Assembly (NCBI RefSeq): GCF_022539405.1
Contig: NZ_CP054394.1
Location: 560,501 to 624,500 of the forward strand
From: Natranaerofaba carboxydovora
Lineage (GTDB): Bacteria > Bacillota > Natranaerobiia > Natranaerobiales > Natranaerofabaceae
Length of the DNA: 64,000 nucleotides
Direction of reading: 5' to 3'
The translations under genes and the position numbers were made by a program. How positions within the stretch are numbered: position 1 is the first letter of the stretch; the number at the start of each line of letters is the position of its first letter. The notes below the pieces were generated by a model that saw nothing but the letters and a program-made list of their open reading frames with translations, made no database searches and was not told the origin of the DNA. This document shows positions 17,152-53,253 of this stretch, in pieces.

Positions 17152-17186
17152 TTGGAAAGAATATTTCCAAGTTTGGATGATAATAT
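17152..17186 (+). promoter_or_regulatory. Dyad promoter 1 (Clp operon)
   Basis: TTGGAAA (17152-17158), 5-bp spacer, TTTCCAA (17164-17170), then 7 bp and an extended -10, TGATAATAT (17178-17186). The same dyad, spacing and extended -10 occur at three other promoters in this window. The dyad centre falls near -32, where a -35 box would be, so a bound protein could act as repressor or activator. Confidence 0.75.
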
Positions 17187-17217: not shown

Positions 17218-19545
17218 ATGGGCAAAGATTTTAGCGATGACGCTAAAAAGGCCATCTCTGACTCCAAAAAGATAGCCATGGAACTCAACTTTGAAGAGGT
17301 TAAAGCTGAGCACCTTTTGCTGGCACTATTAAGGGATAGAGATAACTCTGCATCAAAAGCTTTAGAAAATCTGAACCTGGATTTTGATGAGATAATAGAA
17401 AACTTGGAGCTAGATGAAAGCATAGACGCAAATAACAGCAAAAAGAAAATTCATGATTCTTATGATGTCAAGAAGGTAAAAGAATTTGCACTACATGAAG
17501 CAGAAATAGCTAAGGAAGAAAAAGTAAGGTCATATCACCTTTTGATAGGACTAATAACCGAAGACCATTTGATAGAGGAAGAACTTGAGGCAAATGGAGC
17601 AACGTATGAGAAGATAATGGATGGAATGAAGAAAACAAACAATATAAATAAAAGCTTAAACGGAAATTTAAAAGTTCCTAAAAATTTTGACTGGGGAAGT
17701 AATCACGAGTTTTCAGATAGTCTATCGGCAAAACCGGCTAGTTTGGTAAGTAAAGATAGCATTCTTGAGACATACGGTAGAGATCTTACTGAATTGGCAG
17801 AAAAAGACGAACTAAATCCTTATATTGGCAACCATCAAAAAATAGAACAAGTATCAAAAATATTAAACCGTATGGAGAAAAATAACGCATGTATCATAGG
17901 AGAACCGGGGGTAGGTAAGACAGCACTAGTTAAAGGTCTTGCACAAAAAGTTGCAGCAGATGATAAATTATCTCAGCTGGAAAATAAAAGAATTATTCAA
18001 ATCCAGATTTCTGAATTACTGGCGGGTACAAAGTATAGAGGGGAATTTGAAGAGAGATTAGAAAAACTTGTCAAAGAGATTAGGCAAAGAGATGATGTTA
18101 TTCTATTCATCGATGAACTTCATACTATTGTTGGTGCAGGAACCGCCTCTAATCAAAGCATGGATGCTTCAAATATTTTAAAGCCTGCGTTAAATGAAGG
18201 ATTACAGTGTATAGGAGCAACGACCACTGAGGAATATAGAAAGCATATAGAAAAGGACAAGGCTTTGAAAAGACGCTTTGACACTGTTGAACTTGATATA
18301 CCAGACAAAGATGAATGTTTAGAGATACTAAAAGGGCTAAGGGAAAAATATGAAAATCATCATGAGATTGAAATTAGCGACGAAGCTCTAAAAACGGCAG
18401 TAGAGTTATCTTCTAAGTATATCACAGACAGCAACTTGCCGGATAAAGCAATTGATATAATAGATTATGCTTCATCAAGCTTGAGACTAGACTCAACAAA
18501 AAGTCAAAATAAGCTTTTATCTAAAGAAGATGTGGCCAAAACAGTTTCTCATAAAACAGGGATACCCCTTGAAGAACTAACTGAAGAAGAAAGTGAAAAG
18601 CTGCTGAACCTTGAAGAAATATTAAACAAGAAAGTTATTGGTCAAGATGAAGCGGTTAAGAAAGTTTCAGATACAATAAGAAGATACTATGCCAAACTAA
18701 ATGCTTCAAACAGGCCTATAGGCTCCTTTATGTTCTTTGGTCCAACGGGAGTTGGTAAAACAGAACTGGCAAAAACTTTGGCTAGTGTTCTATTTAATAA
18801 TGACAAAGCATTTATTAGATTTGACATGTCCGAGTATTCTGATAAAGATTCTGTGAGCAGTTTGATAGGAACCTCCCCTGGATATATAGGCTATGAAGAA
18901 GGAGGAGAACTTATAAACAAAGTAAATCAAGCCCCTTTTTCTGTAGTTCTATTTGATGAAATAGAAAAAGCACACCACCAGGTATACGATTTGCTGCTTC
19001 AGATTCTTGATGAGGGTCACCTGACTGGTAAAAACGGCAAAATGGTTGACTTTAAGAACACGATTATAATTATGACGTCAAACGTAGGCGCTGGTTGTTT
19101 TTACGAAAAAAAGTCAGATGTAGGTTTTGTCAAACAGGACGAAAATCAAGCCAGTGAAAAAGTAAGAGAAAAGGTTATACAAGAATTAGAGCAAAAATTC
19201 AGGTTGGAGCTATTGAATCGGATAGATGATATTGTATTATTCAAACCAATATACGGGGAGAGCCTAAAAGAAATTGCAGAATTAATGCTGCAGGAGGTTA
19301 AAGAAAAAATAGAGCAAGAGTATCCTCAATTTAAATTGAAAGTTAGCAAGAAAGCTAAAGAAGTTCTAGCTAACAAAGGATTTAATCGTAAATATGGTGT
19401 AAGGCCTCTAAAAAGAATTATCCAGGGTGATATAGTAAATAAATTATCAAAAATGTTATTAGATAAAGATTCTATTAATGAAAAGAAGATAATAAAAGTT
19501 GATGTTGATAAGGATGAAGAATTTGTAATTAGTGAAAAAACATGA
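17218..19545 (+). CDS. ClpA/ClpC-type AAA+ unfoldase
   Basis: 775 residues from ATG 17218 behind AGGGGGTG. Two Clp-N repeats (~1-140) precede two AAA+ modules: Walker A GEPGVGKTA (~228) with Walker B VILFIDELHT, and Walker A GPTGVGKTE (~506) with VVLFDEIEKAH. No coiled-coil middle domain separates the two rings, so the layout is ClpA-like. A VGF tripeptide (~633) sits where ClpC carries its ClpP-docking loop, so it could feed a protease. The substrate is unknown. The first gene after a dyad promoter, it is followed by a helical protein and an LRR protein; it is probably an island-specific Clp rather than housekeeping ClpC. Confidence 0.85.
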   Translation: MGKDFSDDAKKAISDSKKIAMELNFEEVKAEHLLLALLRDRDNSASKALENLNLDFDEIIENLELDESIDANNSKKKIHDSYDVKKVKEFALHEAEIAKEEKVRSYHLLIGLITEDHLIEEELEANGATYEKIMDGMKKTNNINKSLNGNLKVPKNFDWGSNHEFSDSLSAKPASLVSKDSILETYGRDLTELAEKDELNPYIGNHQKIEQVSKILNRMEKNNACIIGEPGVGKTALVKGLAQKVAADDKLSQLENKRIIQIQISELLAGTKYRGEFEERLEKLVKEIRQRDDVILFIDELHTIVGAGTASNQSMDASNILKPALNEGLQCIGATTTEEYRKHIEKDKALKRRFDTVELDIPDKDECLEILKGLREKYENHHEIEISDEALKTAVELSSKYITDSNLPDKAIDIIDYASSSLRLDSTKSQNKLLSKEDVAKTVSHKTGIPLEELTEEESEKLLNLEEILNKKVIGQDEAVKKVSDTIRRYYAKLNASNRPIGSFMFFGPTGVGKTELAKTLASVLFNNDKAFIRFDMSEYSDKDSVSSLIGTSPGYIGYEEGGELINKVNQAPFSVVLFDEIEKAHHQVYDLLLQILDEGHLTGKNGKMVDFKNTIIIMTSNVGAGCFYEKKSDVGFVKQDENQASEKVREKVIQELEQKFRLELLNRIDDIVLFKPIYGESLKEIAELMLQEVKEKIEQEYPQFKLKVSKKAKEVLANKGFNRKYGVRPLKRIIQGDIVNKLSKMLLDKDSINEKKIIKVDVDKDEEFVISEKT
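19527..19543 (+). repeat. 17-bp direct repeat, copy 1 (end of clp gene)
   Basis: AATTAGTGAAAAAACAT covers the last codons and near-stop region of the Clp gene. An identical copy lies at 20757-20773 and a 16-bp near-copy at 20774-20789. The copies bracket the gene at 19759-20685. Confidence 0.7.
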
Positions 19546-20927: not shown

Positions 20928-21515
20928 ATGAAGTGTAGTTTTGAGGAAGTATTAATTAGGCACTTAGGAGATGGAAAAAGTTTATCAGAAGTGAATGATG
21001 GTAATGTTTTCATGATAACTAATGAAACAGTAGCGGTACTAAATCAATACATAACAAATCTAAAAGGGATTGAAAAGTTTCATAAAGTAAAAACCTTAAA
21101 TTTTAGTGAAAATAAAATAGAAGATATTAACTGGTTTTATATGATGCCAGATCCGGATTTTATTGAAGAGGTTATACTTTCTTCTAATTATATAGAAAAT
21201 ATATCACCTATTAAAACTTTTACAAATATAGACGAATTAAATTTAAGCAACAATAAACTAGTTGATATAACACCCTTAAAGAACTTAAACAATTTGAAAT
21301 TACTTAATTTAAGTTATAATTCAATATCAGATATTAGTTTATTAAGTGACTTAGAAAGTTTAAGAAACCTGTCTTTAAAAAGTAATCAAATATCAGATAT
21401 TTCACCATTGAAAGAATTAAAAGGTTTATTTCGGATTGATTTAAGAGACAATCCAGTAAACAAACAAGATATTTTAGATTTAGAAGTTGAGCTGGGGACA
21501 GATATTAATTATTAA
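20928..21515 (+). CDS. Leucine-rich repeat protein
   Basis: 195 residues, starting at ATG 20928 behind AAGGAG. From about residue 60 it carries at least five ~22-residue leucine-rich repeats of the internalin/SDS22 pattern, e.g. IDELNLSNNKLVDITPLKNL and LRNLSLKSNQISDISPLKEL. There is no signal peptide or wall anchor, so it should act in the cytoplasm, probably in protein binding. In an operon headed by a Clp unfoldase it might serve as a recognition or adaptor subunit, but that is inference. Confidence 0.75.
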   Translation: MKCSFEEVLIRHLGDGKSLSEVNDGNVFMITNETVAVLNQYITNLKGIEKFHKVKTLNFSENKIEDINWFYMMPDPDFIEEVILSSNYIENISPIKTFTNIDELNLSNNKLVDITPLKNLNNLKLLNLSYNSISDISLLSDLESLRNLSLKSNQISDISPLKELKGLFRIDLRDNPVNKQDILDLEVELGTDINY

Positions 21516-21698
21516 GAGGGGTTTATTAAGATACAATTCTAAAAATGCTAAAGATCCTTCTGTAAGAAAAGATATAAATTAAGGGGGTTATGAGATTAGA
21601 ATTACTGCTGGGCTGCTTCGTATATATTTAAGGGATTAATAGGTGGTGCTATAAGTAAGTAGACAGAAAAAGCAGTGCATGAAAGAAGGTGCTCATTT

Positions 21699-22808
21699 AT
21701 GACCGAATATTATTTAATGCTTTTTGATACTCCGGTGGTAAAATTTAAAGTGATTAGAGAGTGTGTTTTTAAGCAACCTAGATTTGAAAATATTGCTATT
21801 CTTCGACAAAACTTAGTCCCCCATGATCTAAAAGACAATAACATCCAAGACTGGCTTGAATATAGAAAAGCGCCGGAAAATAGAGAGAATATCAGAAAAG
21901 TATTCCATGCATGCGGGATAAAAGATGTAACTGATTATATAGAAGTATCTAAAGGGCTAACTTTAAAGGATTCTTATTGGATAAAGCCCGTAGGAAGTAA
22001 TTTTATTTATGATGATATAAATTTATACGAGAATAACTTTAATGAATCTATAGCAGAGCTGGCCTTTAAGGGTTACCTAGAAGGCGACCCACCTAAAAGC
22101 ACATCACCGGAATTTAGCACTGACGGAGCATTGGCCAAATGTTGGCACAGGAAAAACGGTAGAATTTATTTATACAAAAAAGGAACATCCGGAGCAAAAA
22201 ATGCGGGAAATGAACCATATAGTGAATTTTATGCTTGTCAAGTGTTAGAAGCAATGGGGATTAAAGATTATGTGAAATATGACTTAAGAAAATTTAAAGG
22301 GGAGTTGGTATCTGAATGTGAGATATTCACTGATAAAGAGATAGGATATATTTCTGCAGCTGAATATGGTCTGAACTTATATCCTGGAGATCTGTTAAAG
22401 GCTTATGAAAAGATAGGGCAAAGTGATTTTTTTAGACAGATGATAATTTTTGATGGTATTGTTCTTAACAGAGACAGGCATCTTGGGAACTTTGGTTTTT
22501 TAATTGATAATGCGACTAATAAAGTCATCAAAAATGCTCCCATATTTGATAATGGTTATAGTCTATTACCTTTCATGTCGGATGACAAATACCATCAGGT
22601 AGAAAAATATCTTAACAGAATACCTCGTATAGGAGACGACTTTATAAATATTGCAAAGAAAATGTTAACAGAAAAAGAAAAACCCATGATAAAAAGATTG
22701 AAGGGTTTTAAGTTCAAAAAGCATCCTAAATATAATCTGCCTGATAAAAGGTTAGAAGTTTTAGAAGAGGTAGTCAGAGGTCAAGCAAGTAAGATATTAA
22801 AACTCTAA
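21699..22808 (+). CDS. HipA-like Ser/Thr kinase, full length
   Basis: 369 residues. ATG 21699 is chosen because GAAGGTG lies 9 bp upstream. Kinase signatures of the HipA C-terminal domain are present: LNRDRHLGNFGFLID (~254-268; HipA-type catalytic Asp and metal-binding Asn) and PIFDNGYSLL (metal-binding Asp). The N-terminal part ends in SKGLTLKDSYWIKP. Classical HipA phosphorylates GltX and is held by HipB; no HipB-like repressor is adjacent, so a toxin-antitoxin role is uncertain. Its N- and C-terminal halves match the two separate proteins at 33200-33595 and 32431-33225. Confidence 0.75.
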   Translation: MTEYYLMLFDTPVVKFKVIRECVFKQPRFENIAILRQNLVPHDLKDNNIQDWLEYRKAPENRENIRKVFHACGIKDVTDYIEVSKGLTLKDSYWIKPVGSNFIYDDINLYENNFNESIAELAFKGYLEGDPPKSTSPEFSTDGALAKCWHRKNGRIYLYKKGTSGAKNAGNEPYSEFYACQVLEAMGIKDYVKYDLRKFKGELVSECEIFTDKEIGYISAAEYGLNLYPGDLLKAYEKIGQSDFFRQMIIFDGIVLNRDRHLGNFGFLIDNATNKVIKNAPIFDNGYSLLPFMSDDKYHQVEKYLNRIPRIGDDFINIAKKMLTEKEKPMIKRLKGFKFKKHPKYNLPDKRLEVLEEVVRGQASKILKL

Positions 22809-22897: not shown

Positions 22898-22932
22898 TTG
22901 GAAATAAAATTTCCAAGTATAACTGATATATT
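22898..22932 (+). promoter_or_regulatory. Dyad promoter 2 (small-gene/CMP kinase operon)
   Basis: TTGGAAA (22898-22904), 5 bp, TTTCCAA (22910-22916), 7 bp, then TGATATATT as an extended -10 (22924-22932). The layout is identical to the promoters at 17152, 25881 and 33632. Confidence 0.75.
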
Positions 22933-22970: not shown

Positions 22971-23111
22971 TTGAGTAAAGACTTAGCGGGTATTAACCCT
23001 ATTACCACCAATGAAGCCAGCGAGATACTCATGTATTTATCTTGTAAACCCAAACAAAAGTGGAAAATGATACCAGAGAACTTATTAAAGGTGCTAAAAG
23101 TTCGAGATTAG
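22971..23111 (+). CDS. Small hypothetical ORF (46 aa), possible frameshift partner of the next ORF
   Basis: TTG at 22971 follows a strong AAAGGGAGGTGGG site and begins MSKDLAGINPITTNEASEIL. The frame stops at 23109-23111, while a second frame overlapping it from about 23060 continues for 70 codons without a good ribosome site. Either these are two coupled small genes, or one ~95-residue gene carries a frameshift near 23045-23065. The product is unknown. Confidence 0.5.
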   Translation: MSKDLAGINPITTNEASEILMYLSCKPKQKWKMIPENLLKVLKVRD

Positions 23112-23272
23112 TAAAATCGATACAAGATTATTATGCTTCTGATAAAGGTGAAATTTGGCAGAGACTTATGAAACGGGACAATTACAAAAACATAATTGAT
23201 AAGCGAAGAATAGATGACATAGACCAATTAATCGCAAGAGCAGCGGACTATGCTGAAAGATATGGTGAATGA
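23060..23272 (+). CDS. Small hypothetical ORF (70 aa)
   Basis: An open frame of 70 codons starting at a GTG without a clear ribosome site. It is charged and helical (KSIQDYYASDKGEIWQRLM...). It overlaps the preceding 46-codon ORF in another frame and may be its frameshifted continuation. A perfect hairpin begins 17 bp after its stop. Function unknown. Confidence 0.45.
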   Translation: MENDTRELIKGAKSSRLVKSIQDYYASDKGEIWQRLMKRDNYKNIIDKRRIDDIDQLIARAADYAERYGE

Positions 23273-23288
23273 TGCTATACTAGGTTTA

Positions 23289-23314
23289 CCATGCACGGCT
23301 TTAGCCGTGCATGG
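23289..23314. repeat. Hairpin CCATGCACGGC-TTTA-GCCGTGCATGG
   Basis: Perfect 11-bp arms with a 4-nt loop, without a T-run. It shares CCATGCACGG and CGTGCATGG with the hairpin at 20816-20844. Sitting between two genes of the same direction, it could be an RNA processing or stability element, or a small mobile repeat. Confidence 0.6.
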
Positions 23315-23431
23315 TTTATCAAAAAGGGGAGATGAGAGTTTAGTAATCAAATAGAAATAGAAAAGGTCCAAAAAGAAATAATAGAAAAAGTAAAAATAAT
23401 CGAAGAGCTAAGACAGCAGGAAGAAAATATT

Positions 23432-23896
23432 ATGAGAATTGTGGTTATAGATAAAAGAGAAAACAAATTTAATAAAGAATTTATTGAAATAAAGGAAAGT
23501 GACTATCTAAATTCAGGGATTAGTGAATATGTAGAGTCTAGAGAGGCTGTAGAAGAAGTATTAAAAAAATCTGAGAAAATTATAAAAATAGTTTTTTATA
23601 GTGTATTCTTATTAACATTGATCTTTTTACCTTTTGTTGTGGTGGCTGGAGGAATTTTAACCGGGTTTCTTTATGTACTAATTGCTCTGGCTAAGTTTGT
23701 TTTTGTAGCTTTGCTAGTAGTAATTATATTTATAGTAATTTTCTATTTTCAGTTCGGAAGAAATTTATTATGTATTGAAGAAAGTGTAAAAGGTTTTTTG
23801 AATAGCTATGCCCCTGGATACGAAATAAAAAATACAGAATGGGTAGAGGTAAAGCTTGATAGGCGACAAAATGTAAAGTTGGTAATTAATGATTAG
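23432..23896 (+). CDS. Two-helix membrane protein
   Basis: 154 residues from ATG 23432. Two adjacent hydrophobic segments occupy about residues 53-75 and 82-105, flanked by charged soluble parts. Function is not recognised. The same frame is open ~85 bp further upstream (coding for IEIEKVQKEIIEKVKIIEEL) to just behind GGGGAGATGAGAG, where a TTTAGT stands in place of the TTGAGT start used by several neighbours. A mutated start or an unusual one is possible. Confidence 0.6.
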   Translation: MRIVVIDKRENKFNKEFIEIKESDYLNSGISEYVESREAVEEVLKKSEKIIKIVFYSVFLLTLIFLPFVVVAGGILTGFLYVLIALAKFVFVALLVVIIFIVIFYFQFGRNLLCIEESVKGFLNSYAPGYEIKNTEWVEVKLDRRQNVKLVIND

Positions 23897-23924
23897 TCAA
23901 AACCAATAATTCAGGAGGCAAATA

Positions 23925-24482
23925 ATGGGTAAAATAACTTTGACAGGTGATATAGGCAGTGGTAAATCAACAGTAGGGAAAAAAGTTAGCAAAATTCTTG
24001 TATTTAGATTTATCTCCGGTGGGAAGATATTTCGTGAAATAGCAGAGAGAAAAGGCCTTAGCGTATTAGAACTAAATGACTTAGTTGCAGAACAATCCAA
24101 CATAGATTACGAACTAGACGAATACCTTAAATCTTTGAATAAAGAAGATAATATTGTTGTGGATTCAAGGCTTGCCTGGTTTTTTATTAATTACTCTTTT
24201 AAGATTTACTTGGAGGTTAGTTTAGACGAGTCTGTAAGAAGGATATCTAATGATATCAGAAAAGCAGAAAAATATAAAAACAATAAAGAATTAAAAAAAG
24301 CTATTATGAACAGAAAAGGCAATGAACTAAATAGGTACAAAAAATTGTATGGTGTTGATATATACGACAAAAGTAATTATGACCTAGTTATTGACACTAC
24401 TGAAATGGATGTTGATGAAACATCTAAATTAGTAATTGATAAATACTTCGAATGGAGAAAATCAGAAAAAAAATATATGTAA
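23925..24482 (+). CDS. Cytidylate kinase-like P-loop protein
   Basis: 185 residues with a good AGGAGG site. P-loop LTGDIGSGKSTV starts at residue 5. Further segments, FISGGKIFREIAERKGLS and IVVDSRLAWFF, resemble the archaeal-type CMP kinase family (SGG.LFRE...GLS; GRLA). It should phosphorylate a nucleotide or related small molecule. It is last in the operon led by dyad promoter 2, so a role in the island's stress or defence response rather than housekeeping is plausible but unproven. Confidence 0.65.
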   Translation: MGKITLTGDIGSGKSTVGKKVSKILVFRFISGGKIFREIAERKGLSVLELNDLVAEQSNIDYELDEYLKSLNKEDNIVVDSRLAWFFINYSFKIYLEVSLDESVRRISNDIRKAEKYKNNKELKKAIMNRKGNELNRYKKLYGVDIYDKSNYDLVIDTTEMDVDETSKLVIDKYFEWRKSEKKYM

Positions 24483-24578: not shown

Positions 24579-25731
24579 TTATTCGTGAGAGTTATTAACT
24601 TTACAATCCAAACCATACTTACCTGCATTTTTAATTATAATATCTCTTATCTCTTCACGTAAATCTTTTGGTTTTAATAGCTCACAGTGCTCAAAGAACT
24701 GCATCACCCAGGTTATGACACCTAGTCTGCTTACATTGCGAATAGAAAACTCAACATTATCGTTATCTACTAGCTTTATATTTTTAAAATTATGTTCTCC
24801 AAAAGTATCTACGGCATTATTTATCTTACTCCTTTTAAGGCGTATCCTTACGTCAACAATTTCGCTAGAAAACATGTTTATATACTTAAATTTATGGTCT
24901 ATCTGGTGAACATCTTGATGGTGAACTATCTCTTCATCTAGTATCTCGACTTCAGAGATTTTGTCCAGTCGAAAGTTAATAATCTTTCCTTCGTTTTCAT
25001 TTTTGCTGTGGTAGCAAACCAAGTAATAATTTCCCCCATACCACATCAAAGAATAAGGCTCTACTCTATAAGTACTCTCTCTTTTTGGAACAACTTTAAG
25101 TTGTTTATTTATTACATCATACATGTGATATCTAAAAGATATAACATTCTCTTTATCTATAGCTTTTAGTATTTTTTGAATATTATCCGGAGTTTTAACG
25201 AGATATTGTTCTAGGTCCCATTTTTCATGAGTAATATCTTTATACTCGTTTTCAGCTTGAAAATTTATGTAGTTATTAATTTTTTTAATCAGTTTTTCCT
25301 TACCATCTTTATCAAGCAAATTTGATACATAGATAACATCTTGAAAAAGACGTGACTCAGCCCTTGTGATTTCTTTTTCTTCATCTAAAGCCCAACAGTA
25401 AAAAAGCTTTGATTTTTCATTAATTGACTTGTCTGTCTTATCATGTCTTTTATCGTCAAGTTCATAATGTTCAACTTCCATATATTTATCATCTTTATTC
25501 ATATCTTTATTCAAATAAAAGATTCTTACACATGGAGGGTTACTATTAAGCAATTTTTCAATATGGTGCTGTATAGTTCTTTGTTTGGGGCCGTTTACCA
25601 GCAGGATCAAATTCGGAGATCTTATTTTGTAATCCTTCTATAGAATAAGGTTTCTCTGGGCTAGTACATTTTTTTAAGCATTCAATTACTTTATTCCCCC
25701 AGTAACCTTTCTGACGTTTGTTATTATCCAT
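24579..25731 (-). pseudogene. WYL-domain transcription regulator interrupted by a frameshift
   Basis: The long open frame (24579-25610) encodes a WYL domain: SFRYHMYD, then PYSLMWYGGNYYLVCYH, then an arginine-rich NFRLDKISEVEIL. Upstream in another frame, ATG 25731 behind GGAGGGA starts MDNNKRQKGYWGNKVIECL and continues into helix-turn-helix-like sequence (YSIEGLQNKISEFDP). Removing one base from the G4/C4 run at 25587-25590 joins the frames and gives ...RPKQRTIQHHIEKLL, completing a winged-helix. So this is a one-base insertion in a ~384-codon regulator, a slippage site, or a sequencing error. It is divergent from the helical-family operon and is the natural candidate regulator of the dyad promoters. 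Confidence 0.7.
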
Positions 25732-25880: not shown

Positions 25881-25915
25881 TTGGAAAAAAGATTTCCAAG
25901 TAATTATGATATTTT
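25881..25915 (+). promoter_or_regulatory. Dyad promoter 3 (helical-family/AAA+ operon)
   Basis: TTGGAAA (25881-25887), 5 bp, TTTCCAA (25893-25899), 7 bp, then the extended -10 TGATATTTT (25907-25915). It lies ~150 bp from the divergent WYL regulator start. Confidence 0.75.
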
Positions 25916-25946: not shown

Positions 25947-26801
25947 ATGTCGATTTTAGATTCTATTGAGTATACCCCTGACGGGCGAAAAAAGCCGAAA
26001 ACATGGGAGCAGTTTATTATAAGAGAGATTCAAAATGACATGGAGTCGGGTGAGTTTAGAGAGGCATTCTCTACCCTAATATTTTATGTCTATTTCAAAT
26101 CAGAATTACTGGGAGTTGAAAATGACAATATTGTCGCAAGCCTAAAAGAGCTAAAAACTACTATGGAAAAGATAGCAGCTAATGGAAGAGTAATATCAGA
26201 TGCTTTAGCCAGCCAAGTGATTAAAAAGGATAAAATGACAGAAAGAACTATGAAGCGGATGAACAATTTAAACAAAATAATTGAGATAGCAGATAAGTTA
26301 GAAGATGACCTTGGAGAATTTGAGCCTCTTGATATTAGCGAACCATGTAATGGTAGTAAGGAAATAAAAGAGCATTTAGAAAATTGCAGAATGTTTTTTT
26401 ACAATTTGTGGGAGTTTTATGGATGTTTGCTTAGGGCAGGGATAGAAGTAGCTGCTTTTAATGAAAGTGTTAAAGACATTTGCTGTGAACTGGATAATTT
26501 AGAGTCAAAAATATATAGAGCGTTAGAAGATTCGAGCAGCAACAAGCTTGTTAAAGATTATGGGCTTACCCAGCTGTATCCGGCAGCACTTTTTGTCAGG
26601 CTTTGTGAGGTGGCGAAGAACGGGTTGAATGGAGTGATTAGTGACAACTGGACAGATGACCTTGAGAAAACTTATAACCAGATATTATCTATTGATATTG
26701 AGAAGGATCTGTTTTTTTCAGAACAACTGATTTGGATAATGGAAGAGAAAAACATTTTTGCGAGTGATTGTGAAGATTATGGAGAAGATGTACCGTTTTA
26801 G
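25947..26801 (+). CDS. Helical-family paralogue 1 (unknown function)
   Basis: 284 residues starting at ATG 25947 behind AAAGGAGG. Not a family I recognise. It is helical and charged, without membrane or signal segments. It shares an outline with four other proteins here: an N-terminal (K)TWEQF-type motif, a Lys/Glu-rich helix pair, and a central helix F..L.EF...LLRAGIEVAAFNE, which parallels LKQFRNGLVKAGIDTCYF in paralogue 3. First of five genes read with a SpoVK-type AAA+ ATPase. Confidence 0.65.
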   Translation: MSILDSIEYTPDGRKKPKTWEQFIIREIQNDMESGEFREAFSTLIFYVYFKSELLGVENDNIVASLKELKTTMEKIAANGRVISDALASQVIKKDKMTERTMKRMNNLNKIIEIADKLEDDLGEFEPLDISEPCNGSKEIKEHLENCRMFFYNLWEFYGCLLRAGIEVAAFNESVKDICCELDNLESKIYRALEDSSSNKLVKDYGLTQLYPAALFVRLCEVAKNGLNGVISDNWTDDLEKTYNQILSIDIEKDLFFSEQLIWIMEEKNIFASDCEDYGEDVPF

Positions 26802-26847
26802 TTGATTGCCTGCAAAGAAGATAACTTGGAGGGAGGTATATGTTGAA

Positions 26848-27564
26848 ATGTTGAAACTTAATACAAAAAATAAAATCAAAAAAAGTGATGAACATGAGCT
26901 TATTATCTTTGGAAAATTGTTCTTTTTTCTTATAAGAAATCAGTTGAAAGAGCTTGAAGATGAAAATATTAAGCTGCCTGATATAACGGGAATTAAGCCC
27001 CTGGTAGAAAGAATAGCGAAGAAAAATGCAGATAAGAAAAAAGAACTCTGCGATAGGATTAACGACCTTAACTCAAGAGAATGTAAAGAATTAACAGATG
27101 TCGTCAAAAACGAAGACAGGTACGAGGAGATCAAGCAAAGTTTTGAAGCTTATAACAATGTTGTCGAAAAAAGAGTTTTTAATAACAATGACTTTATTAA
27201 CCTAAAAAGTTTTTTCTACAATCTTGATGAGTTTATAAATGCTAGGTTTGTAATGACTGATGAATTAAAAGAAGAGTTGGCTGTTTATTATTCAAATTTG
27301 GCAGAAGATATGGACAGCATTAAACAATCTTATGAAAAGATGCTGCTTACTGAAAAAGAGTGGGAAGATCACCCGCTGTACAGTGACAAGACAACAGGCG
27401 AATACTATAAAGATACACCATTTGAAGTTCACTATGAAAAACTGTTCTTTTTAAGAAAGTTAAGACTTATGGAGAAGTTTAGCAGATGTTTTGAGTGGCT
27501 ATCAACTGAAAATGTTAGATTTTTAAAAGATAAGGAGATAAGATACTTTGAAGATTTGTTTTAA
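26848..27564 (+). CDS. Helical-family paralogue 2 (unknown function)
   Basis: About 238 residues. ATG 26848 is preferred since GGAGGGAGG ends about 12 bp upstream; the open frame extends back to 26806. It resembles paralogue 4: LNSRECKELTDVV against LTVSECEVLTKIV, and LFFLRKLRLMEKFSRCF against IICRRIQLLEKMQKII. Helical and charged, no catalytic motif seen. Tightly packed between paralogues 1 and 3. Confidence 0.6.
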   Translation: MLKLNTKNKIKKSDEHELIIFGKLFFFLIRNQLKELEDENIKLPDITGIKPLVERIAKKNADKKKELCDRINDLNSRECKELTDVVKNEDRYEEIKQSFEAYNNVVEKRVFNNNDFINLKSFFYNLDEFINARFVMTDELKEELAVYYSNLAEDMDSIKQSYEKMLLTEKEWEDHPLYSDKTTGEYYKDTPFEVHYEKLFFLRKLRLMEKFSRCFEWLSTENVRFLKDKEIRYFEDLF

Positions 27565-27604
27565 TCCTAACGAGCCCAACTTTTGGGGAGGTGGCAAAAA
27601 ATCA

Positions 27605-28456
27605 ATGAAAGATAAAAGGCGAAATCTCCAGGTGAAAACATTTAAAGAAGTTTTGGCAGAAGTTTTGGCTCCTAATGACAATTTTGGAGAGGAAAATAGC
27701 TTTAGGCTGCTAGGAAAAGATTCTAGAAAATCTCTCTTGTTTGAGCACTGGGTCAATCATTTAAGTGACAAAGGATTTTTAAGCAATGATTTTGGAGAGA
27801 TAGTGTATGAGTTAGAAGAATATATGGAAAACACGGTGAAGAAGTTGGATGAAATAAGTCTGTCCATTGCTGTTAAAGGAAAGATTAAAAAGGATGACCT
27901 AGTAAGACTTGAAGGTGTTATAGAGGCAAAAGAGTCTTCAGAATATGTCCTTGAAGGGATTAACTTTACTACCAGTTGGAGGTTAGAAAATAAGATATCA
28001 GGCGAAAAGCAGATAGAGAACACTAGAAAAGAATTGAGGGATATTTCAAGATTTTTTGCTATGCTTAAACAATTTAGAAACGGTTTAGTGAAGGCTGGGA
28101 TTGATACCTGTTACTTTGATGTCATTATAGAAAAAGTAGTGATGGAAGTAGAAAACGCGAAGCAAAATCTTGAAACATATATTGAAAGTTTATTCCCAAG
28201 GTTTATCGGAAAAGGCCATTTTGCGATGATTACTAAGGTAGTTATATTTCATGATTTGGCAAACTATTTTAGCAGATCTCTTCAAATGCTTTCTAAAGGT
28301 CAAGAAGATAAAGAGGATAGAGAGGTTACAAAATTTCTTGAAAAAATAAATGTGCTTGAAGATTTGGACCTTGATGATGTACCTAGTTATCTACCAGAAG
28401 GGCCTGATGATGAAGACTGCAGCCTGGATGACTACTATAAAACTTATGGAGTGTAA
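27605..28456 (+). CDS. Helical-family paralogue 3 (unknown function)
   Basis: 283 residues from ATG 27605, behind GGGGAGGTGG. It is the clearest relative of paralogue 5 (34026): KIKKDDLVRLEGV against KITEKDLERLEGI, LKQFRNGLVKAGID against LIQYKSGLLKVGVD, and an acidic C-terminal DLDLDDVPSYLP against VDLDLREIPAYE. The shared acidic aromatic tail may be a partner-binding segment. No known domain recognised. Confidence 0.65.
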   Translation: MKDKRRNLQVKTFKEVLAEVLAPNDNFGEENSFRLLGKDSRKSLLFEHWVNHLSDKGFLSNDFGEIVYELEEYMENTVKKLDEISLSIAVKGKIKKDDLVRLEGVIEAKESSEYVLEGINFTTSWRLENKISGEKQIENTRKELRDISRFFAMLKQFRNGLVKAGIDTCYFDVIIEKVVMEVENAKQNLETYIESLFPRFIGKGHFAMITKVVIFHDLANYFSRSLQMLSKGQEDKEDREVTKFLEKINVLEDLDLDDVPSYLPEGPDDEDCSLDDYYKTYGV

Positions 28457-28481
28457 AGTTTGATATTGGGGGTGTTCAATT

Positions 28482-29177
28482 ATGACAAGTGCATCATTTG
28501 ATGTGCGGGAAGGAAGGCTTAAAGAGAATTTGCGGATTTTTGGAAGATATTTTTTCAGTAGTCTTGCTGGTATGGATATACAAGACGAAAAAAGAGAAGA
28601 AAAATTCAAATTAAATCAAGCTAATACAAAAGAAAATTGCAACAAACTAGAAGAAATTTTGAATGAAGCAAAAGAGCAGATAACAGAGGATGTTCCTGAC
28701 CTAACGGTTTCAGAGTGTGAAGTCCTAACTAAGATCGTAACTACCTCAGAGCGTTTAGCTAAGTTTAAAAGCATTGTTGAAATTACTGGTGAAGAAAACT
28801 TGAATAAAGAAAGTATAGATAAAATCAAGGACTATTTTGTTTTGATATACGAGATTGGTGAACTTATGGATCAACTTGAAGCTGAACTTCCATTAGATGA
28901 AGAAGTGCTTTTTTTCCAGGAATGTTTAAGTGAAATTTCTGATGAACTAAAAGAATTTATTTATAGTTACAAAAAAGATGTAAAACCATTTTTACATGAA
29001 CTTTTTAAGGAAGATAAGCTTTTTGAAATTATGATCATATGTCGGCGGATTCAATTGCTTGAAAAGATGCAGAAAATTATTGATGACAACAAAGAGCAAA
29101 TGGCTGTTCCGTATGAACTTGACTTTTACCTTGGTAGGCTAGAACCCTATAGGGAAGCAGTTAAATTAAAGGTGTAA
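28482..29177 (+). CDS. Helical-family paralogue 4 (unknown function)
   Basis: 231 residues, ATG 28482 behind GGGGGTG. Predominantly charged helix; related in pattern to paralogue 2. It lies 25 bp upstream of the AAA+ gene and is therefore likely co-translated with it. No catalytic or membrane motif seen. Confidence 0.6.
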   Translation: MTSASFDVREGRLKENLRIFGRYFFSSLAGMDIQDEKREEKFKLNQANTKENCNKLEEILNEAKEQITEDVPDLTVSECEVLTKIVTTSERLAKFKSIVEITGEENLNKESIDKIKDYFVLIYEIGELMDQLEAELPLDEEVLFFQECLSEISDELKEFIYSYKKDVKPFLHELFKEDKLFEIMIICRRIQLLEKMQKIIDDNKEQMAVPYELDFYLGRLEPYREAVKLKV

Positions 29178-29202
29178 TCAAATATGAGGAGGTAGATGCT
29201 TT

Positions 29203-31074
29203 ATGCTTAACCTGGTTTCTGTAGACAAAAAGTCAAAAAGACTTAATTCGGGTGAAGTGATGACTTACCTTCCTGTACCTGAGTTAAATTATGATGAGCT
29301 AAAAAAAGATTATAAATATGCTTCACACCTTAAAGAAGTTGATCAGATAGACTTTTCTGTAGCTTCTGATGGACTTTACCTAACAGGTAAAAACATATAT
29401 GATAGCTTTAAAGCAGTAATTTACGCTATTAAAAAGATCGAAAAAGATTTTGACAAAAGAAATTCACCCATAATGATTCCTAGCAATTTGCTAGAAGAAG
29501 ATGATGAAGACGAGGACGAGGATGAATTGGAATTTGAAGAGGAAGACGAAGATGAAGAAGATGAAGATAATGAAGTGCTATCCCTTTTGTACGATAATGA
29601 TAGCTTAAAGAAAGTTCCAATTATAAATATATCAGATTTTTCATCGGCTACAAATGTTATGGGTCCACGTCCTAACGTAATAGGCAACCATGGTATGGCT
29701 TACGAAGAAAGTAAAGATAACAAAAAGCCTTACTGGTACAATGGGGAATTTCCCTTGATAATTCTTAGCAACAGCCCACCTCCCATGAGTATAATTGAGA
29801 TATTAAGAGCTGAAAATCGTTATCTTTTCTTTATTAATCCTGGTAATGTGCGGGCGCCATATTTTTGGAACAAACCTATGTTTAATAATGATATGATGTC
29901 ACAGTTTGAAAAACGACTTTACTTTGAACTTGACTTTGAGGCATGTAAACTTACAGAGCCTTCTAACAAATATTATTTGCAAGTATTAAAAGATAGTGTC
30001 AAAAAGAAAGGATATAAGCTAAGCCGTAATATTGGCCAAAACGAGCTTATTGATAATCTTAAAAACTACCGGGCCCATGAATTCAAAAGTTCTTTGGATA
30101 TCGAAAGGATGGTTTCAAAAGCAATAAAAAAGAAAACAGATACAACAAAAACCCTTAAAAAGTCAGATTTCGAAAAAGTGCTTTTAATCCATAAGGAAAT
30201 AGAAATAGAAGAAAAAGAAAAGAGAGATGTTTCAAAAGAATTGGACAACCTGGTTGGTCTAACTGAGGTTAAAGCCCAACTTGAACGCCTCGTTAAAAGG
30301 ATTAAGCATCATAAATTAAGAATGAGAAAAGGCTATACGACAGAAGATGTTCATATGTCAGCGGTATTTATGGGTAATCCTGGCACAGCAAAAACAACTG
30401 TAGCTCGCTATTTAGGTGAAAGATTGTGTGAGGAAAAGCTATTGGATAATCCAAACTTTGCTGAGTTAGGTCGAAAAGATTTGATAGGATTATATGTAGG
30501 TTGGACAGCGCCAACTGTGGCAAAGATATTTGAAGAAAATAAAGGCGGTACTATCTTTATAGATGAGGCTTACAGTTTAGTTGATGATTTAGGTGGTAAA
30601 AGTTTTGCCCAGGAAGCAATATCCGAAATAATAAGGCAGATGGAAAATAACCCTGATACATTAGTAATTTTTGCAGGTTATACTGAAAAGATGAAGGATT
30701 TTATCAAGAATGCTAATCCCGGACTTCGCTCTAGACTTACAAATGTCATTGAGTTTCCGGATTACTCCAATGAAGAGATGTTTGAGATATTTTGCTCTTT
30801 TGTAACACATGAAGATTATGTCTTAGAGGACAAAGAGAAAACAAAAGAAATTATTTTAAAGTTTTTGGATAAGATTAACAAATTAGGTTCTGAAAATCTA
30901 GGTAATGGCAGACTTATGAGAAAAACCTTCAAATCTGCTGTTGGCTTTATGTCAGAGCGAGAGGATAATGACTTGCAAACTATCAATGTATGGGACGTTC
31001 AAAATGCTGTAAAAGAAATTGAAAGAACAGAAAAGATGGTATCAGGTGAAAAAGAAGGCAAGATAGGGTTTTAA
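29203..31074 (+). CDS. SpoVK/CbbX-type AAA+ ATPase
   Basis: 623 residues behind GAGGAGG. The C-terminal ~280 residues are an AAA+ module of the CbbX/SpoVK/EccA group: LDNLVGLTEVKAQLERLV, Walker A FMGNPGTAKTTVA (~388-400), Walker B GGTIFIDEAYSLVDD, sensor 1 VIFAGYTEKM, arginine finger PGLRSRL. The N-terminal ~300 residues are of unknown fold and include an almost purely acidic stretch (~residues 97-122). This ATPase group remodels protein complexes; its likely clients are the four helical proteins encoded upstream in the same operon. It is the last gene of that operon. Confidence 0.85.
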   Translation: MLNLVSVDKKSKRLNSGEVMTYLPVPELNYDELKKDYKYASHLKEVDQIDFSVASDGLYLTGKNIYDSFKAVIYAIKKIEKDFDKRNSPIMIPSNLLEEDDEDEDEDELEFEEEDEDEEDEDNEVLSLLYDNDSLKKVPIINISDFSSATNVMGPRPNVIGNHGMAYEESKDNKKPYWYNGEFPLIILSNSPPPMSIIEILRAENRYLFFINPGNVRAPYFWNKPMFNNDMMSQFEKRLYFELDFEACKLTEPSNKYYLQVLKDSVKKKGYKLSRNIGQNELIDNLKNYRAHEFKSSLDIERMVSKAIKKKTDTTKTLKKSDFEKVLLIHKEIEIEEKEKRDVSKELDNLVGLTEVKAQLERLVKRIKHHKLRMRKGYTTEDVHMSAVFMGNPGTAKTTVARYLGERLCEEKLLDNPNFAELGRKDLIGLYVGWTAPTVAKIFEENKGGTIFIDEAYSLVDDLGGKSFAQEAISEIIRQMENNPDTLVIFAGYTEKMKDFIKNANPGLRSRLTNVIEFPDYSNEEMFEIFCSFVTHEDYVLEDKEKTKEIILKFLDKINKLGSENLGNGRLMRKTFKSAVGFMSEREDNDLQTINVWDVQNAVKEIERTEKMVSGEKEGKIGF

Positions 31075-31198: not shown

Positions 31199-32434
31199 AT
31201 GAAAATAAAAGGGGTCAGGGATTATCTAAAAGATGAGGGAGACATAAGAGATTATTTAAAAGAAGTAATTATCTCAAATTATAAAAAGTATGGTTTTAAA
31301 CCAGTGGAAACCTCGATTTTAAACAGCATGGAAGTTTTAACGAGTAAATACGGTGGAGGAGATGAAATAGCAAAGGAGATCTACAGTGTAAAAGAGCAGG
31401 GAGAAAGAGATCTGGGACTTAGGTTTGATTTGACTGTTCCCCTGATGAAGTTACTAAACCAAAACAAACAGCTCGGGAAACCATTTAAAAGATGTGAAAT
31501 TGGCAAAGTTTTTAGAAACGGTGATGTCAAGAAAGGTAGACTTAGAGAGTTTACTCAGTGTGATGCGGATATAGTAGGTACTACGGATATAACTGCTGAA
31601 GTAGAACTTATTGTTATGGTTTTGAATATTTTTAACAAGCTAGGCCTAGAGGATGTAGAATTATATTATAACAATAGGAAAGTACTAGAAGGAATCATCT
31701 TAGAAAATGGAATAGATATAGAAAAAGCAGAAGATGTGATTTTGACAATAGATAAGCTTGAGAAAATGGAAGAAGACAGTGTTCTAAAAGAGTTGCAGGG
31801 GAAAGGTGTAGAGTTAGAAACAGGGGAAAAACTTATTAAAGATCTCAAAAAGCTTAATAAAGAAGAATTAAAAGAAAAGTATAGATCTCAATTAGTACAA
31901 GAAGGTTTTGACGAAATAGAAAAAATTAAAAACTTGTTAGAAGCGCTTGGGAAAATAGGCAAGTGTAAATTTTCGGCTTCTTTAGCCAGGGGGCTAAATT
32001 TTTATGATGGCTTAATCTATGAAGCTTTTGTAAAAAATTCTCAAATCAAAAGTAGTATAGCTGCCGGAGGTAGATACAGTATTATTGGCGAATCAAAAGA
32101 AACTGCTGTTGGGATATCCATAGGCCTGGATGTTTTGGCTGAAGTATATAAAGAAAAACTCTTTAAGAAAGAAAAAAGAAACGGATATTATATAATTCCT
32201 GTGGGTGGTTATGTGGCTGAAAGCTTTAAACTAGCAGAAAGATTAAGGTATGATGGAGAAGTTGTAGAACTTGAAATGGTAAAAAGAAGTATAGGAAAAA
32301 GTTTTAAAGCTTGCGACAACAAAAAATATAGATATGCAGTTGTAATAGGCGAAGATGAAGTAAAAAACAACTATTATACCTGCAAGGATTTAGAAACCGG
32401 CGAAGAAACTAAGGAAAAGTTTGATTATTATTAA
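31199..32434 (+). CDS. Histidyl-tRNA synthetase paralogue
   Basis: 411 residues, near full length for HisRS. The class II core is visible: LRFDLTVPLMKLL, the motif 2 region CEIGKVFRNGDVKKGRLREFTQCD, the histidine-binding loop SLARGLNFYDGLIYE, and motif 3-like GISIGLDVL. The C-terminal anticodon-binding domain is present (IIPVGGYVAESFKLAERLR). The sequence type resembles the second HisRS found beside the housekeeping copy in some Firmicutes. It may make a resistant or regulatory HisRS. It is convergent with the split HipA-like genes, whose stop overlaps its stop. Confidence 0.8.
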   Translation: MKIKGVRDYLKDEGDIRDYLKEVIISNYKKYGFKPVETSILNSMEVLTSKYGGGDEIAKEIYSVKEQGERDLGLRFDLTVPLMKLLNQNKQLGKPFKRCEIGKVFRNGDVKKGRLREFTQCDADIVGTTDITAEVELIVMVLNIFNKLGLEDVELYYNNRKVLEGIILENGIDIEKAEDVILTIDKLEKMEEDSVLKELQGKGVELETGEKLIKDLKKLNKEELKEKYRSQLVQEGFDEIEKIKNLLEALGKIGKCKFSASLARGLNFYDGLIYEAFVKNSQIKSSIAAGGRYSIIGESKETAVGISIGLDVLAEVYKEKLFKKEKRNGYYIIPVGGYVAESFKLAERLRYDGEVVELEMVKRSIGKSFKACDNKKYRYAVVIGEDEVKNNYYTCKDLETGEETKEKFDYY

Positions 32435-33225
32435 ACTACTAGAGTTTCGTACTTTCTTAATTGAAACTTTAATACATTTAAAGCTCTGCATAGAGGGAAT
32501 TGACTGAGTAACTCTTCAATTAGGTCTTTATTAAACTTTAAGCCGCAATTTGATACAGCTTTAAACTGTTTTTTGAATGATGTGGAGAAAGGCTTTGATT
32601 TTACTTTATTTAATAGATGCCTGGTAGTGTAATCTATAGGGAAGCCTTTAGTATCTGATAGCAAAGACAACCCGTTATCAAAAATTGGAGCAAGGTGATA
32701 TGTTTCTAGTTCTGTATTATAGATAACGCTCAAATTATTAAAATGCCTGTCTTCGTTCAAAATAACAGCATCAAGAGCTAAAATATACTTTATGTAGGTG
32801 TCTATATCTTTTAAGCCAGTTACATCGAATATTATTTCAGATACTATCTCTATCTGTTCTTTAACGCTTTTTCTAGTTAGCAGACTATCTATATCGATTA
32901 AGTTCTCCTCAAATAACTTATAGAATGTTTTGTGTTCTTCATTTTTTCCTAAAAAATTTTCTGAGGAGCAGCCTGTGTATTTGGTTTTGTTATCTTCAAT
33001 AATATCGACAAAATTGTATCTTACGTAGTTGAAGTTACTTTTGTCAATATTAGAACAATCAAGTAATTTGGAAGCTAGTACTTCTGCAGTGTCTTCATAA
33101 CCAAAAGTATTGGCCTTTATCCAGTTATTATCTTTAAACCATTTGATTTGGTTACCTTGACACAAAACACTGCTATTTAGCCTGACTGTCCTATCTACTT
33201 TAATCTCGGATCTTGATATCATCAT
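32431..33225 (-). CDS. HipA-like kinase, catalytic half of a split pair
   Basis: 264 residues. ILNEDRHFNNLSVIYN and HLAPIFDNGLSLLS match the catalytic and metal-binding segments of HipA-like kinases. It lacks the N-terminal subdomain, which is encoded by the overlapping upstream gene at 33200-33595. This resembles the HipS/HipT split of HipBST systems, but the homology to HipT is only inferred. Its stop overlaps the HisRS-like stop by 4 bp. Confidence 0.7.
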   Translation of the reverse strand: MMISRSEIKVDRTVRLNSSVLCQGNQIKWFKDNNWIKANTFGYEDTAEVLASKLLDCSNIDKSNFNYVRYNFVDIIEDNKTKYTGCSSENFLGKNEEHKTFYKLFEENLIDIDSLLTRKSVKEQIEIVSEIIFDVTGLKDIDTYIKYILALDAVILNEDRHFNNLSVIYNTELETYHLAPIFDNGLSLLSDTKGFPIDYTTRHLLNKVKSKPFSTSFKKQFKAVSNCGLKFNKDLIEELLSQFPLCRALNVLKFQLRKYETLVV

Positions 33226-33595
33226 ACTTCAAATCCTCTCCATTGAATCGTATCCATAAATAATCATCGAATTGCAGACCGTGGGTTTTCTCTACAATTG
33301 CAAGGGGGGAATAAGTCTTTAACCCTAGATCTTCTAAAAGCTGGTGACAATTAAACCTTTCTTTTGGAAAGCATCTTGATTTTAAGAAATTATTTACCAC
33401 TTTTAACCCTCTTCTGGGATTATTAAAAGGGGTAGTCTTGGTATCTATTGAAACCGGGAAGGGCCTTTTTTCAGGTTTTGTAGTCTGATCTATATAAATA
33501 TACTTTTTGTCAGCTGACACAAAAACTTCTGCTACCACTTTGTCTTTATGCAAAACTTCAAACTTTAAATCATTATATATATCTTTTAAAGACAT
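33200..33595 (-). CDS. HipA-like N-terminal subdomain protein (HipS-like)
   Basis: 131 residues from ATG 33595, behind GAGGTGTG; a GTG at 33601 is too close to that site. Its end (EKTHGLQFDDYLWIRFNGEDLKYDDI) aligns with SKGLTLKDSYWIKPVGSNFIYDDI in the unsplit HipA-like protein at 21699, so the two are halves of the same ancestral protein. It overlaps the catalytic-half gene by 26 bp, implying coupled synthesis and likely complex formation. Divergent from dyad promoter 4. Confidence 0.65.
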   Translation of the reverse strand: MSLKDIYNDLKFEVLHKDKVVAEVFVSADKKYIYIDQTTKPEKRPFPVSIDTKTTPFNNPRRGLKVVNNFLKSRCFPKERFNCHQLLEDLGLKTYSPLAIVEKTHGLQFDDYLWIRFNGEDLKYDDIKIRD

Positions 33596-33631
33596 CTTCA
33601 CACCTCAAGTTTATATAAAAAGTATTGTAAT

Positions 33632-33666
33632 TTGGAAAAGTATTTTCCAAATAGTTATGCTATTAT
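33632..33666 (+). promoter_or_regulatory. Dyad promoter 4 (second helical-family locus)
   Basis: TTGGAAA (33632-33638), 5 bp, TTTCCAA (33644-33650), 7 bp, then TGCTATTAT (33658-33666), a close match to the extended -10 consensus. It lies between the divergent HipA-like pair and the downstream operon and could affect both. Confidence 0.75.
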
Positions 33667-33721: not shown

Positions 33722-34036
33722 TTGGAAAAGAATATGTTCAAATTTAAAATAAATGAAAACAGTGATATATCTCCTGAGTTTGAGCCAGAAAGGCTAATCG
33801 ATTCAATCTCTAAAAGTAAAAAATCCTTTTTAGAGATCTATGGGAAAAATGATAGTTCGCTAATTGCTGTCACAGCTGTAGCGGACTATGTTTGGGCGGA
33901 CTTTTACAGGCTTTGTGGTGAAGTGCAATTTGAATGGTCTTTTTATAAAGATGACACTATCCCTGATAATCAACTACATGCTAAGCTGTCCTATCCGTTT
34001 AAGGTCTATAGGGGAGGTAGATTGGATGATAGTTAA
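33722..34036 (+). CDS. Small hypothetical protein (104 aa)
   Basis: TTG start 33722 behind TTGGAGGTGAG. Function is not recognised; no membrane or signal segment. First gene after dyad promoter 4 and overlapping the ribosome site and start of paralogue 5, so it is probably coupled to it. Confidence 0.6.
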   Translation: MEKNMFKFKINENSDISPEFEPERLIDSISKSKKSFLEIYGKNDSSLIAVTAVADYVWADFYRLCGEVQFEWSFYKDDTIPDNQLHAKLSYPFKVYRGGRLDDS

Positions 34037-37991: not shown

Positions 37992-39455
37992 ATGAGGTCG
38001 AAAATTCTTTATCACAGTGATGTCGAAGACCATGAAAAAGAGGGGATCAAAGCCCTTGAAAAAGAGCTTCCCCCTGAAAATTTCATACTCCTTGTGGGGA
38101 CTTATGTTAATGTCCGTGACTCTGATGACAGGGAAATAGACGCAACGTTAATATGCCCAAGAGGAGTTTTTGTAATAGAATTAAAACACTGGGTAGGCCG
38201 GATAAAAGAAAATATTACCACAAACAACTATCAGCTAACTCAGATAAGGCCAGATAATAGCAAAGAAGTACACCCAAACCCATTTAAAAAAGCTTCAGAG
38301 CAAAGAAAAACCGTTGCAGGAGACATAAAAAAAAGACTTAGAGAATCAAAACTCAACTCACAAAAAGCAAAAACAATCTCTAAAAAGCTAAACTGGAACG
38401 GCGGGGTTAAAGGTGCTGTTTTCTTTACCAACAAAAACTTCAGCTTCAATATTGAAAATCCCCGGGAAATTGCCCCCATCCTTTATCTACGCCCGGGAAA
38501 TACAAGTTTTCTCTGGGAGAAAAAGTTTACCCAGGACGTCTTTAACGAAGAAGAAATCCAGGCTATTATCGATCTCTACCCCGGGGGCGAAGAAGCCGGG
38601 GAAGATGTTAGAGAACACTTCGAACTGGGAGAAATGGTTGGCGACTATAAAATTGAAGAGATCATTTACGGTAAGGAAGAAGACGAAGACCCCAAATACC
38701 AGAAAAACAGCTACTTTATCTACAAGGCTTACAATGAGCTTTTAAACAAACACTACTTCTTAAAAGCCGTAAGAATAGACCCCGGTGCAAAAGAAGATGC
38801 TCAAAAGACAATTGAAGAGATAGGAAAAAGAGACTTAAGAGCAAAAGGTGTCCTTAAAGATAACCCTTATGTTCTTATGTCAAGTGTACCACCTGACAGG
38901 TACGGACTTCATATCATAAGCGTAACAGACTGGGTAGACCACATATCGTTAGACGAGAAAATGAAGCTGGGCATTAGTTTTGAAGAAAAAAAAGAAATTA
39001 TCAAAACATTAATTAATGCCTTAGAAAGTATCCACGAAAAAAATGTCTACCATAGGGACTTAAACCCAAAAAACATAATCATCACAACTGAAGGCGAGCT
39101 AAAAATCCTAAACTTTGACTTTGCCAAGTTAATCGGCTACGGCACAGTCTGGGACGGAATCGTAGAAAAAGCTACCAGGTACAGGGCTAACGAAGTTATA
39201 ATGCCCCAGGACAAATCCAAAGTAGATTATAGAACCGACTATTATTCTTTGGGTGCAATTGTTTATGAACTAATAACTGAGAAAAAAATCTTTGAAAAAT
39301 ACAGCGAAAAGGTAACCAACTATTACGACAAAGAAACCCTAAATGCCAAATGCGATTCCAAAAAGCTCTACAACGCCGTTAACCTACTTCTTCATGGAGA
39401 ACCCGAGAAAAGAATAGACGGCCTTTCCAAGCTAAAGAGGTGGGCAGGTTGTTAG
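37992..39455 (+). CDS. NERD-domain Ser/Thr protein kinase
   Basis: 487 residues, ATG 37992 behind GGAGGGGTG. The N-terminal NERD nuclease-related domain shows REIDATLICPRGVFVIELKHW (~38-58). The kinase domain (~205-480) has YFLKAVRI (ATP lysine), HRDLNPKNIII (~353, catalytic loop) and LNFDFAK in place of DFG. NERD-kinase fusions resemble PglW of the Pgl/BREX-2 defence group. The other Pgl genes are absent. It overlaps the next kinase gene. Base composition is more GC-rich than its neighbours. Confidence 0.8.
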   Translation: MRSKILYHSDVEDHEKEGIKALEKELPPENFILLVGTYVNVRDSDDREIDATLICPRGVFVIELKHWVGRIKENITTNNYQLTQIRPDNSKEVHPNPFKKASEQRKTVAGDIKKRLRESKLNSQKAKTISKKLNWNGGVKGAVFFTNKNFSFNIENPREIAPILYLRPGNTSFLWEKKFTQDVFNEEEIQAIIDLYPGGEEAGEDVREHFELGEMVGDYKIEEIIYGKEEDEDPKYQKNSYFIYKAYNELLNKHYFLKAVRIDPGAKEDAQKTIEEIGKRDLRAKGVLKDNPYVLMSSVPPDRYGLHIISVTDWVDHISLDEKMKLGISFEEKKEIIKTLINALESIHEKNVYHRDLNPKNIIITTEGELKILNFDFAKLIGYGTVWDGIVEKATRYRANEVIMPQDKSKVDYRTDYYSLGAIVYELITEKKIFEKYSEKVTNYYDKETLNAKCDSKKLYNAVNLLLHGEPEKRIDGLSKLKRWAGC

Positions 39456-53188: not shown

Positions 53189-53253
53189 ATTTAATTAATT
53201 CTACTTAAATGGTAAAAAGCCCTTTAATATCAGGGCTTTTTGGAGAAAAAAAT

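Follow-up and report, generated by a model that had tools for sequence, protein, structure and literature searches.

An operon of two alternating orphan families and a divergent SpoVK/CbbX/EccA-clade ATPase in a local regulon of Natranaerofaba carboxydovora

Introduction

What might a SpoVK/CbbX-type AAA+ ATPase act on when its gene closes an operon of four genes for charged proteins that match no known family? The question is raised by positions 25947–31074 of a 64,000-nt stretch of the Natranaerofaba carboxydovora genome, which we call the window (560501–624500 of a single contig of 3.26 Mb; coordinates below are those of the window unless marked as genome coordinates). An earlier note on this DNA took the four proteins to be helical paralogues served by a dedicated remodelling ATPase. 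Here, we report that they fall into two sequence families in alternating order, and that their operon is one of four with the same promoter element; taken jointly, we regard this two-family structure and local regulon as highly probable. For the function we propose, with a probability of about 0.5, that the ATPase remodels complexes of the two families within a module that responds to stress or phage and is controlled by a WYL regulator.

Results

The operon encodes two alternating families

Five consecutive plus-strand open reading frames (ORFs), P1 to P5, span 25947–31074 with short intergenic gaps, and the five-gene operon described earlier is thus real. P1 (25947–26801; 284 aa), P2 (26806–27564; 252 aa) and P4 (28482–29177; 231 aa) are orphan charged proteins, and P3 (27605–28456; 283 aa), an orphan protein predicted to be helical, is alike in its charged composition. 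The length of P3 is counted from the ATG at 27605, which is preceded by GGGGAGG and is a more likely start than the TTG at 27548. P5 (29203–31074; 623 aa) is an AAA+ ATPase with an N-terminal half that has no match and a C-terminal AAA+ half of the SpoVK/CbbX/EccA clade. A further relative, P6 (34026–34850, plus strand; 274 aa), is second in a separate operon that opens with a 104-aa orphan ORF (33722–34036, plus strand). No Rfam element was found in 15000–37500.

Scoring the local alignment of each pair among P1–P4 and P6 against 1000 shuffles separated these proteins into a family A (P3–P6, z = 38; P1–P6, z = 12.6; P1–P3, z = 7.4) and a family B (P2–P4, z = 6.8), with z between -0.6 and 4.7 for the remaining pairs. 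Profiles of the two families miss each other: a profile of A (P1, P3 and P6) met P2 at an E value of 0.16, the same as decoys, a profile of B (P2 and P4) met P1 at 0.11, close to decoys, and hhalign gave the families a probability of 1%. On these comparisons the four upstream proteins are two sequence families arranged A-B-A-B ahead of the ATPase, with P6 as a third A, rather than the single paralogous set of the earlier note; the motifs it had assigned to all four, RLEG and G-(L/I)-(V/L)-K-(A/V)-G-(I/V)-D, belong to family A, where they are clearest in P3 and P6. A remote kinship of A and B is possible, given z = 4.7 for P1–P2 and an N-terminal stretch that is alike in P1, P2, P3 and P6 with no significant A-B match. 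The A-B-A-B order suggests duplication of a cooperating A-B pair. Of the tandem subunit expansion proposed earlier, the duplicated subunits hold, as does one more copy with a promoter of the same type, but what was expanded is an A-B pair with one additional A and not a family of four.

Neither family, nor the N-terminal half of P5, had a credible match in Pfam, NCBIfam, PADLOC or PHROGs, and P1–P6 matched no sporulation or gas-vesicle family, in agreement with the earlier view that no known family or operon is present. Searches of 399 genomes of the phylum with the P5 N-terminal half and a mixed A/B profile returned nothing outside the source genome (the comparison sample included two further genomes of its order), while a pure A profile gave two matches at E values of about 0.005, which equals chance expectation; a plasmid search with P1 and P3 found no relatives. 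Exact 8-mer scans of larger collections of genome contigs and viral contigs, with metagenomes outside the search scope, were empty, a result of little weight since they missed even generic AAA+ relatives. Families A and B are thus undescribed, by sequence, in the libraries searched. The charge once ascribed to all four proteins is found in each of them; their helical nature is borne out, with low confidence, just for the modelled P3.

A shared promoter element marks a local regulon

Upstream of P1, a palindrome, TTGGAAAAAAGATTTCCAA (25881–25899, plus strand), and an extended -10 element, TGATATTTT (25907–25915, plus strand), form a putative promoter/operator of P1–P5. The palindrome is the inverted repeat TTGGAA-N7-TTCCAA, of which the window holds four plus-strand copies within 16.5 kb, each ahead of a gene set. 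One (17152–17170) lies upstream of a ClpC-like AAA+ gene (about 17218–19545), whose product carries a Clp_N domain; another (22898–22916) precedes 23060–24482, which encodes a 70-aa ORF, a membrane protein and a cytidylate-kinase-like nucleoside triphosphatase; the last (33632–33650) stands between the downstream P6 operon and a divergent HipA-like gene. An extended -10 (TGN-TANNNT) follows each palindrome on its 3' side at a constant distance. The repeat occurred zero times in 100 Markov-shuffled windows, and the five best-scoring matches elsewhere in the genome all lie within coding regions. At all four promoters it overlaps the -35 region, as is expected of a repressor site, although an activator is also possible. 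The earlier note had given P6 a separate operon with this type of promoter; the type is in fact represented four times. These data lend good support to a local regulon of four operons, P1–P5 among them. Four matched promoters within 16.5 kb mark a regulon unusually well, and make a co-regulated gene set directly testable, including A and B as clients of P5.

The ClpC-like gene and a gene for a 313-aa orphan are followed downstream by one for a leucine-rich-repeat protein (20928–21515, plus strand), which possibly belongs to the same operator-controlled set.

A divergent ATPase of the SpoVK/CbbX/EccA clade

The C-terminal half of P5 matches the AAA+ domain PF00004 (E = 1.7e-12), with Walker A at 391, Walker B at 451 and its AAA+ motifs intact. 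Its scores fall below the cut-off of each named family in the clade, with 191.2 bits for SpoVK proper (TIGR02881; cut-off 422.95), 155.1 for CbbX (TIGR02880; cut-off 459.25) and 155.9 for EccA (curated cut-off 466.65), and the nearest solved structures are CbbX and EccA1, the latter among the closest three chains. The EccA likeness could mean that P5 is an EccA-like part of a type VII-like secretion system, with A-B pairs as exported WXG100-like substrates. Small helical pairs are indeed typical type VII substrates. However, the EccA cut-off is missed, WXG100 proteins were searched for in the genome and none was found, and A and B, at 231–284 aa, have no family match; we consider this explanation very improbable.

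Signatures of the SpoVK-CbbX-EccA clade, namely a GY at sensor 1, an Asn four residues ahead of the arginine finger and a sensor-2 Arg (Delerue et al., PMC10659427), are found in P5 as FAGYTE at 490, NPGLRSR at 505 and GNGRLMRK at 567. The 345-aa N-terminal half has no detectable homologue in the libraries and 399 genomes searched, and contains an acidic stretch (24 D/E per 30 residues, starting at residue 95); both the group assignment and the acidic segment had been read correctly before. By its motifs and scores, then, P5 classes as a divergent SpoVK/CbbX/EccA-clade member, a new variant inside a known clade. Members of this clade are dedicated chaperones whose varied N-terminal domains may recruit substrates, and the characterised ones are single-purpose activating chaperones (PMC10659427). 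We also considered that the N-terminal half might, as in the L067-type ATPases described below, be a degenerate AAA domain: strands and helices follow a similar order by eye, but the profile tests fail.

The genome has a separate spoVK, at genome position 1136307, that scores better than P5. This gene is interrupted at its Walker A codons by about 3.7 kb (locus L113, 886–5482; genome 1132385–1136981), which encode a radical-SAM protein and a serine recombinase with Resolvase and Recombinase domains. The sequence AAAGGTAATCCT is present as a short direct repeat at L113 1118–1134 and 4818–4834. Gene-intervening elements that are excised during sporulation are known in sigK, spsM and gerE, and the spoVK insert resembles them. 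No report of an intervening element in spoVK was found in the literature searched.

P5-like ATPases elsewhere lie beside WYL genes

Searching the 399 genomes with P5 returned mostly short SpoVK proteins; the best matches were ATPases of about 690–730 aa from one family of the phylum, and related long forms occur on Lachnospira and Selenomonas plasmids. The long WYL-linked SpoVK-type ATPases comprise loci L067–L072 and the plasmid loci L033 and L034. A WYL gene lies near 6 of 8 core P5-like ATPases, whereas none of 20 short SpoVK loci has one nearby (Fisher p = 7e-5, with a WYL profile built from five of the seven WYL loci counted, and with several core loci being close kin); when long forms of every kind are counted, 7 of 22 loci have such a neighbour. 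In an AAA+ tree with a midpoint root, P5 clusters, on a long branch, with 7 of 8 core proteins (support 98/86). A PDC-S02 defence-candidate gene (296 bits) adjoins the Lachnospira ATPase. Together with the four-promoter regulon, the WYL link of P5-like ATPases is the clearest new result of this analysis: long ATPases of the clade, beside WYL genes and with changing partners, suggest that the clade also serves in bacterial conflict or stress, a role that has received little study.

A different palindrome, GTCAAATTTGAC, is found at two promoters of L071 (L071:1550 and 11516) and ahead of the L069 ATPase (L069:11070), with zero copies in 398 kb of control loci. It is possibly a WYL operator in the L071/L069 group.

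A WYL gene and a defence-type island surround the operon

Divergent from P1 is a WYL-WCX regulator gene (24579–25731, minus strand) that consists of a helix-turn-helix (HTH)-like ORF (about 25558–25731) and a WYL ORF (24579–25610), with PF13280 at 44.6 bits and PF25583 at 28 bits, both above cut-off. By analogy with WYL regulators of defence systems, this adjacent factor probably controls the four-operon regulon.

The surroundings are those of a defence-type island. McrBC-like genes (11772–15051) and a NERD-UvrD helicase (15084–16943) are followed by a HipA-like kinase locus of a single ORF (21675–22808, plus strand); a second HipA-like locus (32431–33601, minus strand) is divided into two ORFs that overlap, one corresponding to the N-terminal and the other to the C-terminal part of the single-ORF copy, through either a natural split or a frameshift. 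A histidyl-tRNA-synthetase-like gene (31199–32434, plus strand) stands between P5 and this kinase, the third such copy in the genome (others at genome 812796 and 832427); tRNA synthetases are known HipA kinase targets. Further downstream lies a Mokosh-like set (37992–44749, plus strand) in which a NERD-kinase and a second kinase each have a gene of their own, alongside a large superfamily 1 helicase that scores 408 bits with the MkoA model and a weak match to MkoB.

This neighbourhood bears on a rather unlikely alternative, in which the operon would be a lineage-specific stress or quality-control unit under a general-stress regulator, A and B being adaptors that hand damaged proteins to P5 with the ClpC-like unfoldase alongside. 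A ClpC-like AAA+ protein with a Clp_N domain is indeed under the same promoter element, the Mycobacterium WYL regulators described act in DNA-damage responses, and in the P5 clade the members known so far act as chaperones rather than as nucleases or toxins (PMC10659427). Yet the neighbours of the operon are McrBC-, NERD-helicase-, HipA- and Mokosh-like genes, and A and B were not found in the other genomes sampled, which is unusual for general quality control.

Less probable still, the genes might be decaying or selfish mobile-element cargo with no present function for the cell. The families are orphans, the WYL gene is split across frames, and the window contains an IS21-type pair (1011–3235, plus strand), transposase-like ORFs (51632–53610) and a group II intron-type reverse transcriptase (54491–55816). 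Against this, all five ORFs and the AAA+ motifs of P5 are intact, the four promoters match, and neither A, B nor the N-terminal half of P5 has a notable PHROG match; we regard mobile cargo as improbable.

Among the other features of the window, ARAGORN predicts a tRNA-Sec (anticodon tca) at 47946–48042 (plus strand), and the ATPase-like gene of the IS21-type pair is repeated, with its AAA score unchanged, at five genomic sites.

Discussion

Our favoured reading is that A-B complexes are remodelled by P5 as part of a response to stress or phage under WYL control. The regulon and the families are well supported; the defence role and the mechanism we infer. A WYL protein would bind the inverted repeat at all four promoters, and a signal from infection or DNA damage would alter its control of the regulon. 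The partners would be produced as two A-B pairs, with P6 as a spare A from another regulon promoter. The N-terminal half of P5 would recruit these helical partners and its AAA+ ring remodel them, so that P5 assembles or switches A-B hetero-complexes, which in turn might carry out the anti-phage or stress response, or present prey for it. A large complex assembled or triggered by P5, as envisaged earlier, is plausible by analogy with the clade. That P5 is a dedicated remodeller is likely as well, but it resembles a broader group of long ATPases that lie beside WYL genes with different partners. More tentatively, the locus may be a new inducible defence module in which, once induced under WYL control, a SpoVK/CbbX-clade chaperone would activate hetero-complexes of A and B, within a wider undescribed group of WYL-linked long ATPases with exchangeable partners; this fuller proposal we think possible, at less than even odds.

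A number of observations weigh against the favoured reading. Firstly, the HTH-like N-terminus and the WYL ORF are in different frames, so that the gene, through mutation or sequence error, may be inactive, and the genome has one other WYL gene, which makes the adjacent one an inferred assignment. Secondly, the WYL association is qualified by the profile and the close kin noted above, and the long branch of P5 makes its placement in the tree unsure. Thirdly, the N-terminal half of P5 matched an N-terminal-half profile of the L067 type no better than its own shuffles did (hhalign probability 0.4%), and the partners of the long WYL-linked ATPases (NERD helicase, DUF2779, PDC-S02, VWA or MoxR-type genes) include no relatives of A or B. 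Fourthly, no PADLOC system matched P1–P4 or P6, and P5 drew just weak TRIP13/IetA matches (22–26 bits). Lastly, an AlphaFold2 model of P3, from an alignment with two paralogues, is all helical with low confidence (mean pLDDT 57), and a PDB fold search with it, which gave nothing at E <= 0.001 (TM about 0.2), led us to leave the model unused; a model of P5 alone was unusable (mean pLDDT 38).

With the SpoVK/CbbX/EccA clade, P5 shares the core AAA+ signatures and a variable region ahead of the AAA+ domain; it differs in falling far under the equivalog cut-offs, in its unique 345-aa N-terminal half and in an operon with two orphan families. The long WYL-linked ATPases are like P5 in AAA+ identity (about 40–45% for the best), in their long N-terminal halves and in their WYL neighbours (6 of 8), whereas the different partners and the N-terminal halves without detectable homology point to a shared arrangement, and not to a proven common descent of the whole module. 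CoCoNuT restriction loci of Type III-A carry a SpoVK-family tandem ATPase of which the C-terminal ATPase alone is active (PMC11090510). The likeness lies in the family of the ATPase, in its setting at a predicted defence locus, and in McrBC-type genes, which P5 has nearby too; the CoCoNuT ATPases, however, have C-terminal leucine-rich-repeat and beta-barrel fusions and VWA neighbours, whereas P5 has neither, and an AAA fold is not supported for its N-terminal half. Finally, the defence systems BREX and CBASS are regulated by the WYL proteins BrxR and CapW, of which BrxR recognises inverted repeats whose spacer is 5 bp (PMC9122601, PMC9122588). The present locus differs from these in having four matched sites and a regulator gene split between frames; it resembles them in a WYL protein that adjoins defence-type genes, in 5-bp-spacer inverted repeats over promoters and in more than one such site per island.

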